IMG/VR virus record: IMGVR_UViG_3300030060_001497
Span: 1 to 32,191 of that record
Direction: 5' to 3' (one strand)
From: a virus
DNA length: 32,191 nucleotides
Shown: piece by piece, positions 1 to 18,782 of the stretch
Numbering within the stretch: the first letter of the stretch is position 1
Layout: the number at the start of each line of letters is the position of its first letter
Position numbers and translations under genes: made by a program
Notes under the pieces: generated by a model
What the model saw: the letters and a program-made list of their open reading frames with translations, nothing else
Told to the model about the DNA's origin: nothing
The model's database searches: none

Positions 1-451
1 GCCTAGCGACTTAGACGATCAAAAGAAACTTGCACGTTTGCAAAGTCAAAGTATTGCTGGTTTAATGTTTGGTCGTAGCAATAACGTAATAGATTTTACT
101 GCAACGCAAAACGCTGCATCGTCAACGATAACTGACTCTAGGCTTGGCGTGAATACAGTTTTATTGTTTATGCCAACAACAGCCAATGCCTCTGCTGAAA
201 TAGGGGCTGGCACAATCTATGTAGGACAGTCAAGCAGGGTAAATGGTTCTGTTGTAGTTACTCATGCGAACAATTCACAGACAGATAGAACATTTAAGGT
301 AGTAATGGTAGGTTAATGCTGGATCACGTATTAGTTTTGTTGGCACAATCGCCAACGCATCATTATTGGACGATAAAGGAAGTAGCAAAACGCATAATAC
401 CGCCTGTTAATCTAAATCAAAATGTAGGCATAATAGAAAATGGTTATTTGC
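1..451. repeat. Terminal near-direct repeat, left copy
   Basis: Bases 1-451 align without gaps to 31741-32191. I count 24 mismatches, about 95 percent identity. The first 60 bases are identical, and the differences cluster at third codon positions. The simplest reading is that the contig runs slightly more than once round a circular map of about 31,740 bases. The divergence means the two ends come from different alleles or that the gene pair is duplicated in the phage. Confidence 0.9.
2..316 (+). CDS. Small beta-rich virion-module protein, 5' truncated copy
   Basis: This is the left-end copy of the gene that is complete at 31715-32056. The window edge removes the first nine codons, and reading in frame starts at base 2. 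The visible part ends in the same conserved motif, HANN-x-QTDRTFKVVMVG, as the full copy. It differs at five residues (SS for TT, V for A, L for F and S for A). It looks beta-strand rich with no membrane segment. Small proteins of this kind sit next to tail or head-tail genes in many podoviruses, so a minor structural role is likely, but no function is known to me. Its stop codon overlaps the start of the acyltransferase gene (TAATG). Confidence 0.8.
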   Translation, partial: PSDLDDQKKLARLQSQSIAGLMFGRSNNVIDFTATQNAASSTITDSRLGVNTVLLFMPTTANASAEIGAGTIYVGQSSRVNGSVVVTHANNSQTDRTFKVVMVG

Positions 452-696
452 AAGCGTGGGCAAGTTGGGGGTTTCTTTCTGAAGAAAAGAGTGATAAGTT
501 TTTAAATGGTGATTATGAGTTGATGCCAGAAGATTGGAGAAGCGGCAACGTTCTGGTCTTTATGGATTTTGTAGCCCCTTATGGGCATACAAGAAAATTG
601 TATAGAATGTGTCGCAATCTATTTCCAAAATACCCAAAAGCTGAGTGGAGGCGACACCTTAAAAACAAGAGGGTAGGAGTGGCTTTAAATGTCTAG
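316..696 (+). CDS. HlyC-like toxin-activating lysine acyltransferase
   Basis: The 126-aa product matches the HlyC/RTX-toxin acyltransferase family (PF02794) from memory. In E. coli HlyC the catalytic residues are His23 (in SSPLHRNW) and Asp92 (in FIDWIAPFG). Here His15 lies in QSPTHHYW and Asp84 in FMDFVAPYG, so the spacing between the two residues is the same, 69. The EDW-x-SG motif (72-77) and the A-x-W-x-F-LSEE stretch (49-57) also correspond. The family transfers a fatty acyl group from acyl-ACP to internal lysines of a protein. The gene is fused into the late operon by overlapping codons on both sides, between the head-tail genes and the ejection-protein candidates. No RTX toxin is visible, so the substrate is probably a virion protein or a host protein. 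It is somewhat shorter than HlyC (about 170 aa), lacking C-terminal residues. Confidence 0.85.
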   Translation: MLDHVLVLLAQSPTHHYWTIKEVAKRIIPPVNLNQNVGIIENGYLQAWASWGFLSEEKSDKFLNGDYELMPEDWRSGNVLVFMDFVAPYGHTRKLYRMCRNLFPKYPKAEWRRHLKNKRVGVALNV

Positions 697-16758: not shown

Positions 16759-17121
16759 ATGGCAGATTTTAATATTACCACAACTCAAACGTATAAATTT
16801 GAAATAGCTTTTGAGCGTCAGCTAAAAGTAACAGTAACAAAAAAAGAAATTGTTCAAGCTGGTTATTGCGAAAATGTTGTAGATGGTGATCCAACAGCAT
16901 GGAAGGATTATGTGCAAGATTACATAAATGATCATGGGGTGACAAGCTTTATAGAAAAAAACAAAGCCTCGATAAGTAAAGAAGATAATGCGGACGATAT
17001 TTTTAAAAAGTTAAAAGAACATATTGATGTAGCAGTATCAGATAAGACTTCTTTATCAGCAGATGAATTTATTCCGTACAAAGAAATTGACTGTAATGTT
17101 GATTATATTGATTGGCTATAA
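16759..17121 (+). CDS. 120-aa unknown early protein
   Basis: First gene behind the plus-strand early promoter, with GAGGA 6 bases before ATG 16759. The product is acidic and helical with Lys-rich strands near the start (TQTYKFEIAFERQLKVTVTKKE). No known domain. Early location suggests host takeover or regulation. Confidence 0.72.
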   Translation: MADFNITTTQTYKFEIAFERQLKVTVTKKEIVQAGYCENVVDGDPTAWKDYVQDYINDHGVTSFIEKNKASISKEDNADDIFKKLKEHIDVAVSDKTSLSADEFIPYKEIDCNVDYIDWL

Positions 17122-17123
17122 AC

Positions 17124-17438
17124 ATGAGTAACAATAAACAGACAGCTAAAGAAGAACTATTAGAAAAAATTGAATTTAATGATCAGCCCAATTTATTAGA
17201 TGCTATGGGCGCAACGAAAGATTGGGAAAAAGAATGGCAGTCAATGCCAGAGTTTGTAATGGGAAACACAGAGCCATTTCAAAAAATAACAATTAGTTTT
17301 CAAAGCCAAGAAGATGTTAAACAGTTTGCAGAATTAATAGGGCAGACAATAACAAGTAAAACAGCAAGTCTGTGGTATCCCCAACAAGAGGGATATGTTG
17401 CACCTAAAAATTTTTTATATGTAGATCAAAAAAAATGA
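17124..17438 (+). CDS. Small partner protein of the glycosyltransferase
   Basis: This 104-aa protein precedes the glycosyltransferase and overlaps it by 4 bases. The segment FQKITISFQSQEDVKQFAELIG (54-75) and the SLWYP near 90-94 match a small conserved protein I have seen upstream of similar glycosyltransferases in phages. I chose the ATG at 17124, as the upstream alternative is TTG within the previous gene. Function unknown; it may bind the nucleic-acid or enzyme partner. Confidence 0.68.
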   Translation: MSNNKQTAKEELLEKIEFNDQPNLLDAMGATKDWEKEWQSMPEFVMGNTEPFQKITISFQSQEDVKQFAELIGQTITSKTASLWYPQQEGYVAPKNFLYVDQKK

Positions 17439-18271
17439 ACCCAGAATATCCGATATATATTTTATCAAAAGGGCGTTGGGAAAGTCGTTTAACAGTAAAA
17501 ACGCTTGAAAAGAAAAACGTCCCCTTTCGAGTAGTGGTTGAGCCTGACGAATATAAAGAATATGCAAGAGTTATAAGCGCACAAAAACTTTTAACGCTTC
17601 CTGATAATTTTAGTGAATTAGGGCAGGGGTCAATACCTGTAAGGAATTGGATTTGGGAACATTCAATAAAAGAAGGTTGGGAAAAGCATTGGCTAATAGA
17701 TGATAATATCGTGAATTTTCTACGCCTTAATTTAAATCGAAGAATACCAGTAGGCAGTGGAACAATTTTTAAATGCGCTGAAGACTTTACTGATCGTTAC
17801 ACCAATGTAGCATTTAGTGGTTTTAATTATGTTGGTTTTGCAGCAGATAGAAACGAAAACGTACAGCCATATACATTAAATACACGGGTTTATTCAACAA
17901 CGCTGATTAACAATGCAATACCTTATCGTTGGCGTGGGCGATACAATGAAGATACAGACATTTGTTTAAGAGCCTTAAAAGATGGTTGGTGTACTATACA
18001 ATTCAATGCGTTTTTAGCAGACAAAGCGACAACGATGACAATGAAGGGTGGCAATACAGACACGATTTATAATACAGGTGATGAGCGAAAAGAATTTGCT
18101 GAAAGTTTGGCAAGGCAACACCCAGACGTTGCTAGAGTTGTCTGGAAGTTTGATAGGTGGCATCATCAAGTAGATTATTCACCTTTTAAAAGAAATAAAT
18201 TAAAACGAAGTGCAGGAACAATCGTTAAAGAAGGCGTAAATAATTATGGCATGGAATTGGTAAGGGTATGA
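17435..18271 (+). CDS. TET-associated-type glycosyltransferase (GT-A fold)
   Basis: The 278-aa protein has the layout of TET-associated glycosyltransferases (TAGT), which glucosylate hydroxymethylated bases in phage DNA. Residues 5-10 (YPIYIL) with SKGRWESRLT form the first strand and loop; the DD motif lies in WLIDDNI (Asp89-Asp90); RGRYNEDTDICLRAL at 167-181 gives the acidic catalytic loop; the C-terminus is basic. No TET/JBP dioxygenase or hydroxymethylating enzyme is seen in the genome, so the acceptor may be a different modified base, a host-made base or a protein. Confidence 0.75.
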   Translation: MNPEYPIYILSKGRWESRLTVKTLEKKNVPFRVVVEPDEYKEYARVISAQKLLTLPDNFSELGQGSIPVRNWIWEHSIKEGWEKHWLIDDNIVNFLRLNLNRRIPVGSGTIFKCAEDFTDRYTNVAFSGFNYVGFAADRNENVQPYTLNTRVYSTTLINNAIPYRWRGRYNEDTDICLRALKDGWCTIQFNAFLADKATTMTMKGGNTDTIYNTGDERKEFAESLARQHPDVARVVWKFDRWHHQVDYSPFKRNKLKRSAGTIVKEGVNNYGMELVRV

Positions 18272-18468
18272 TTGAACGAAATGAGATAACAGCCAAAGCA
18301 TTGAAGAAAGCTGGCGGTGCGAAAGCACTTGCAGACCTATTAAAAATATCGCAACCATCTGTATCTGGTTGGAAAAGAATACCCGCAGATCGTTGCATTG
18401 CTGTAGAAGCAATAACAGGCATCTCTAGGCACAAGCTACGGCCTGATGTATTTGGGAGGCAGCCATGA
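18268..18468 (+). CDS. Cro/YdaS-like helix-turn-helix regulator
   Basis: The 66-aa protein has a helix-turn-helix at about 18-38: AKALADLLKISQPSVSGWK, then IPADRCIAVEAITGISRHKLRPDVF. This matches the Cro/YdaS family. It would bind an operator as a dimer. It is the only clear repressor-like gene, so it is the first candidate to act on the TTGC-type promoters. ATGA couplings on both sides. Confidence 0.85.
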   Translation: MIERNEITAKALKKAGGAKALADLLKISQPSVSGWKRIPADRCIAVEAITGISRHKLRPDVFGRQP

Positions 18469-18782
18469 AGCGTCATAAGTACAACGCTGTAAAAACAAAG
18501 CTAGATGGGATCACCTTTGCATCTAAGGCAGAGGCCAAACGCTACGCTGAATTAAAATTACTTGCACAAGCTGGCGTTATATCAAATTTGATTTTGCAAC
18601 CACGTTTTGATTGTGTGGTGGCAAATGTAAAAATTTGCACATATGTAGCTGACTTTATGTATCTGGAACGTAGCAAGCAAGTAACTGAAGATGTGAAGGG
18701 TGTTAAAACGCCAGTATACAAGCTCAAGAAAAAATTGGTTGAGGCTATCCACAATATTAAAATTACAGAGATTAAGCGATGA
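18465..18782 (+). CDS. DUF1064 nuclease-like protein
   Basis: This 105-aa protein matches DUF1064 (PF06356) of phages, related to the PD-(D/E)XK nuclease fold. Candidate active-site residues are Glu23, Asp63 in VADFMY, and Asp76-x-Lys78 in EDVKG. The N-terminal HKYNAVKT and FASKAEAKRYAEL segments are characteristic. A role in Holliday-junction or flap processing is likely but not shown. Confidence 0.85.
   Translation: MKRHKYNAVKTKLDGITFASKAEAKRYAELKLLAQAGVISNLILQPRFDCVVANVKICTYVADFMYLERSKQVTEDVKGVKTPVYKLKKKLVEAIHNIKITEIKR

Follow-up and report, generated by a model that had tools for sequence, protein, structure and literature searches.

Among the enzymes closest to the one described here is the beta-glucosyl-HMC alpha-glucosyltransferase of phages T2 and T6, a TET-associated-type glycosyltransferase (TAGT) that belongs to the same family (PF20691) and also has a GT-A fold (PMC13216743). 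The T6 enzyme, which modifies DNA (PMC13216743), adds a second glucose to glucosyl-hmC and is encoded beside the gp42 dCMP hydroxymethylase; in the T-even-type phage records inspected, the TAGT gene adjoins gp42. It differs from the TAGTs that are accompanied by the small partner domain reported below (hereafter partner-type): no partner was seen adjacent to it, it reaches only 10 bits against the partner-type profile, and, with a branch length of 10, it had no reliable position in the tree. The PF20691-type TAGT of Nonlabens phage P12024L scores 107 bits against this profile, but lies beside a TET gene (PF12851) and a DNA methyltransferase gene, has no partner, and falls outside the 95-row partner-type clade.

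Solitary TAGTs have been found in 288 of 753 phage genomes (PMC13216743), and Aeh1ORF087c was described as 'presumably modifies DNA, unknown base' (PMC8056088). Orphan TAGTs are thus already in print and are not new in themselves. Aeh1 ORF087c and its counterparts in phages phiAS5, 65, POP12, and PTm1 belong to the same clade as the enzyme studied here, carry the partner domain, and have no convincing gp42 or TET gene. However, these are large phages in which the partner is fused N-terminally and lacks the QxxLF motif.

Two other systems are relevant to the way in which such enzymes may reach their substrate. The alpha-glucosyltransferase of T4 modifies DNA and binds the sliding clamp gp45 (PMC13216743), and therefore provides a precedent for a clamp-tethered DNA glycosyltransferase, a link that is predicted from a motif in the present case. 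In contrast to the enzyme described here, it has a GT-B fold, binds gp45 itself without a separate adaptor, and needs hmC. Binding to gp45 is not the main reason for the dominance of alpha-linkages in T4 (PMC13216743). Similarly, ParBc proteins are reported to occur in phage cytosine-modification clusters and, in some cases, as fusions with DNA methyltransferases (PMC12783734). As in some prophages considered below, a ParB_N protein adjoins a DNA-modifying enzyme in such clusters (e.g., CmoX; PMC12783734); CmoX is a carboxymethyltransferase, whereas in partner-type prophages the partner domain is part of the ParB_N protein, whose companion is a TAGT.

What appears to be new here is the partner domain and its near-obligate pairing with one TAGT clade, for which we claim no priority: the literature searched, which did not extend to the 2013 paper defining the TAGTs, contains no report of the partner, the pairing, the ParB fusions, or the clamp-like motif.

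The Locus and Its Glycosyltransferase

The window, i.e., the whole stretch of DNA analysed, is IMGVR_UViG_3300030060_001497, a linear viral contig of 32,191 bp from a P22-like phage, a virus of bacteria. It carries genes for a terminase, a P22-type portal, scaffold, coat, an SU10-type adaptor, and ejection proteins, as well as for tail-fibre assembly, lysozyme, NinB, ERF, and YqaJ. The genomes of the portal protein's relatives measure 33-40 kb; perhaps 1-8 kb are therefore absent from the contig, which is perhaps ~80-97% complete. Between a structural ORF and a DNA-ejection gene lies an HlyC-family acyltransferase gene (PF02794, 1e-21), an unusual location for that family (Table 1).

The glycosyltransferase (GT) and partner genes are located in the rightward early operon, the replication operon of the window, where consecutive genes for the partner, the GT, a YdaS/Cro-like regulator, and a resolvase-like protein share 4 nt at each junction. 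The ORF directly upstream of the partner is probably outside the module, since it is conserved only in very close relatives. A promoter scan was uninformative (12 sites vs 10.7 expected).

Table 1. Features of the window and of related loci (L numbers designate loci of our survey).
Feature	Record	Position	Strand	Remarks
HlyC-family acyltransferase	window	316-696	+	PF02794
Unknown ORF, 120 aa	window	16759..17121	+	directly upstream of partner
Small partner, 104 aa	window	17124..17438	+	ATG at 17124; stop overlaps GT start by 4 nt
QPNLL, partner aa 21-25	window	17184..17198	+	weak match to beta-clamp-binding consensus Q-phi-x-[L/M]-[F/L]
TAGT glycosyltransferase, 278 aa	window	17435..18271	+	GT-A fold; PF20691, phrog_842, AF2/Foldseek
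DDN, GT aa 89-91, DXD-type motif	window	17699..17707	+	invariant in 41-sequence alignment
EDTD, GT aa 172-175, acidic motif	window	17948..17959	+	invariant or nearly invariant in 41-sequence alignment
YdaS/Cro-like regulator	window	18268..18468	+	PF15943; 4-nt overlap with GT stop; operon context
DUF1064/Holliday-junction-resolvase-like gene	window	18465..18782	+	same early operon; context
Methyltransf_23-like gene	L002	724-1566		
Methyltransf_23-like gene	L177	5194-6042		
Methyltransf_23-like gene	L027	9168-10001		
Methyltransf_23-like gene	L185	5209-6072		
Methyltransf_23-like gene	L071	10825-11652		
Methyltransf_23-like gene	L064	5107-6021		
NAD-dependent/NDP-sugar epimerase	L028	10846-11703		PF01370; directly 3' of GT
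Divergent DnaN-like clamp	L021	10818-11900		near TAGT
Divergent DnaN-like clamp	L126	6708-7712		near TAGT

A preliminary description of this DNA had proposed that the 278-aa protein is a TAGT. This identification was borne out by a match to PF20691 (142.1 bits, E 2.9e-41, cut-off 27.5) that covers the full profile (1-205/205); the protein also matches phrog_842. A GT-A fold is likewise predicted: the AlphaFold2 model, built from 41 aligned sequences and separately from that of the partner, has a pLDDT of 90.3 and a pTM of 0.90, and retrieves GT-A enzymes in Foldseek (E about 3e-6). The nearest solved folds include the protein glycosyltransferases COLGALT1 and POMGNT1. These matches reflect the generic GT-A fold only, and the acceptor is not indicated by the fold. 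An acidic pattern like EDTD is also present in the TET-linked TAGT of P12024L. A search of PDB sequences returned nothing convincing for the GT, and no plasmid carried it at E 1e-3 in a plasmid search.

The Partner Domain and Its Pairing With the TAGT

The partner consists of an N-terminal extension (aa 1-32) followed by a conserved WxxxWxxMPEF...F...SLWYP domain (aa ~33-100), and both FQKITISF and SLWYP are present. A Pfam scan of the window partner and its relatives assigned it to no family; a hit to DUF5620 (0.0088) was below the cut-off, was not repeated in most partners, and was rejected as chance. No fold match was obtained with Foldseek or VIA-align, nor anything convincing from a PDB sequence search. 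As a domain, the partner is distinct and unnamed, and it is close to obligate for one TAGT clade.

The coupling of the TAGT to a small conserved partner, also put forward in the preliminary description, was upheld by the comparison of genomic neighbourhoods: the two are adjacent or fused in nearly all loci with enough flanking DNA. Other samples contain pairs that are 97-98% identical, and dozens of unrelated phages carry the same two genes, so the association is more than chance. Matches to the partner profile lie directly upstream of the GT, or are fused to it, in 84 of 86 loci, the other two being contigs that start at the GT. Among 80 viral loci found through the GT, the partner is directly upstream in 73, near in two, and fused in three, while two contigs begin at the GT. 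Conversely, a profile search with the partner gave 80 viral loci, with a GT adjacent (58), fused (three), nearby (15), or missing from the available DNA (four). Three of these last four end right after the partner, and relatives of the fourth have a GT 2.7 kb downstream.

The same association extends beyond these records. The partner is present at 43 of the 47 GT loci in bacterial genomes, and one of the exceptions starts at a contig end. In a phage collection, tblastn with a relative of the partner gave matches only in records that also hold a partner-type TAGT. All nine named partner-type phages have the partner, fused to the GT in eight; fusions were seen in Aeh1, phiAS5, 65, POP12, Kuja, PTm1, and the Vibrio phages 1.076.O and 1.124.O. 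When 11 near-whole phage genomes were compared, GT plus partner was the only family common to all 11, the next best being shared by four, and neither this comparison nor the neighbourhood search revealed a third gene family shared alongside them. In three loci (L088, L089, and L093), a small ORF downstream of the fused GT has a weak second partner-like domain.

Exchangeable N-Termini of the Partner

The N-terminus of the partner is swappable: it may hold a QxxL[F/L] motif or, in prophages, a ParB_N domain, and it carries neither when partner and GT are fused. The motif occurs in 17 of 74 non-redundant stand-alone extensions, against 0.9 expected and a maximum of five in 300 shuffles, whereas forms with E, K, D, S, or N in place of Q show no clear enrichment. 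It resembles the beta-clamp-binding peptide consensus, Q-phi-x-[L/M]-[F/L] (PMC11139829). However, the aliphatic second residue of that consensus is present in only four of the 74 extensions, and over half of the stand-alone partners are without the Q form. The window's own version, QPNLL, is weak and not strictly conserved, being replaced by ETPTLL in a 74%-identical relative from the closest relative group. More generally, a broader [LMF]F[DEGN] signal is in excess in the extensions (40 vs 7.9), which shows that they hold a conserved hydrophobic peptide also when Q is lacking.

At many prophage loci, a ParB_N protein (PF02195) ends in the partner domain, whereas the window partner has no ParB_N; some prophage loci have a terminase-small-subunit-like gene after the GT. 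Taken together, the exchangeable clamp-motif-like and ParB N-termini make DNA a more probable target than an unrelated protein or sugar, and suggest that the partner may be a recruiting adaptor.

A phage DnaN-like clamp family is encoded near the GT in several loci (PDB beta clamps, 5e-18; phrog_947). Divergent DnaN-like clamps near the TAGT in L021, L126, L029, L177, L062, and L026 are below Pfam cut-offs and clear by profile comparison with the PDB. Clamp genes of this kind, like the optional methyltransferase genes found within the module in some lineages (see below), are further hints of a link to DNA.

Absence of Known Base Hydroxylases

The preliminary description reported no TET/JBP oxygenase, thymidylate-synthase-like hydroxymethylase, or nucleotide kinase in this genome. 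This holds true for the 32,191-bp record, from which some kilobases of the genome may be missing: the window has no match to PF12851, PF00303, T4 gp42, or PF00145, and no hydroxylase or nucleotide kinase was seen among the window ORFs scanned. PF12851 (TET/JBP) was found in none of 40 partner-type metagenomic viral records and in none of the nine named partner-type phages; as a positive control, the search detected it in P12024L, whose TAGT has no partner. Similarly, PF00303 (thymidylate-synthase type) was found in none of 43 partner-type records. The large named phages do carry PF00303 genes, which are best read as thymidylate synthases. A search with T4 gp42 was convincing only in the T6 control and in none of the nine named phages, PTm1 giving a marginal partial match (3e-4). 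C5-methylases (PF00145) are rare, with two cases in 50 records overall.

Most of the viral records surveyed are fragments, and the absence of hydroxylase genes applies to the available DNA; it is thus never fully proved. These searches support the view that the lack of a known hydroxylase extends over the whole partner-type clade and is not a quirk of the window contig. Since only GT and partner are common to the 11 near-whole genomes, a shared unrecognised hydroxylase is unlikely; different phages could use different ones.

A Possible Mechanism and Its Alternatives

We propose, with about an even chance of being right, that the two genes form a replication-tethered DNA glycosylation module whose acceptor is supplied by no known hydroxylase. 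The TAGT would transfer a sugar to the phage's own DNA. Gene order and fusions suggest that the conserved MPEF/SLWYP domain of the partner docks onto the TAGT, and the N-terminus of the partner would bring the enzyme to replicating DNA. The tether would be a beta-sliding-clamp-binding-like peptide in stand-alone partners and ParB_N in many prophage versions, while in some large phages the GT would itself carry the adaptor as a fused part. A hydroxymethyl base produced by a known TET/JBP or gp42-type enzyme is probably not the acceptor, which may instead be a canonical base or one that a yet unrecognised activity has altered. The likely benefit would be evasion of host nucleases. A stronger version, in which GT and partner glycosylate an unmodified DNA base directly at the replication fork, without prior hydroxylation, via the swappable clamp-binding or ParB adaptor, is possible but doubtful.

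An ordinary TAGT, whose acceptor is hydroxylated by an unrecognised enzyme from the host, from another divergent phage gene, or from the part of the genome that the contig lacks, would fit with a feature common to every characterised TAGT context, the involvement of a hydroxylated pyrimidine or its glucoside (T6 with gp42, PMC13216743; P12024L with TET and a DNA methyltransferase), and with the incompleteness of a linear contig. However, PF12851 and PF00303 were found in none of 40 or more partner-type records, the named phages have no convincing gp42 gene, and no third family is common to the near-whole genomes, so that we consider this explanation unlikely. The clamp-like motif and the early replication operon could also be understood if the motif directed the GT to a replisome protein such as the host sliding clamp, whose glycosylation would redirect replication, and COLGALT1 and POMGNT1 are among the nearest solved folds. 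These Foldseek matches, though, reflect only the generic fold, some relatives encode a clamp of their own, and the motif is replaced in prophages by ParB_N, ParBc being a mark of phage DNA-modification clusters (PMC12783734); protein glycosylation is thus distinctly improbable. Modification of the cell surface or of another carbohydrate, for lysogenic conversion or receptor masking, appears very improbable: it is compatible with the GT-A fold and with the NDP-sugar epimerase gene located after the GT in three records that are close relatives, but no membrane or lipid-carrier gene recurs beside the GT, and the replication-operon location, the ParB and clamp-like links, and TAGT family membership all argue against it.

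A near-obligate candidate adaptor with clamp-like or ParB ends offers a concrete, testable mechanism for solitary TAGTs, which are common in phages, and the MPEF/SLWYP domain provides a marker for finding such systems. If the acceptor were a canonical base, DNA would be modified by a new route, which could be exploited for sequencing and DNA labelling and would bear on phage evasion of host nucleases. Cultured carriers exist (Aeh1, phiAS5, and Vibrio phage 1.076.O), in which the module is directly testable.

Optional Genes Around the Module

In several lineages, a class-I methyltransferase gene is located between, before, or after the GT and partner genes (Table 1); it is present in sister phages that are 98% identical and absent from the window. 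Directly 3' of the GT, an NAD-dependent/NDP-sugar epimerase gene (PF01370, 9e-45) is found in L028 and also in the closely related L042 and L044. In addition, tandem TAGT copies occur in L022, L035, L043, L048, L119, and L092 (Kuja). The methyltransferase, the epimerase, and the tandem GTs suggest an optional tailoring of the sugar. One of the GT copies in L043, and likewise one in L048, is highly divergent and clusters with the TET-type TAGT in a long-branched tree.
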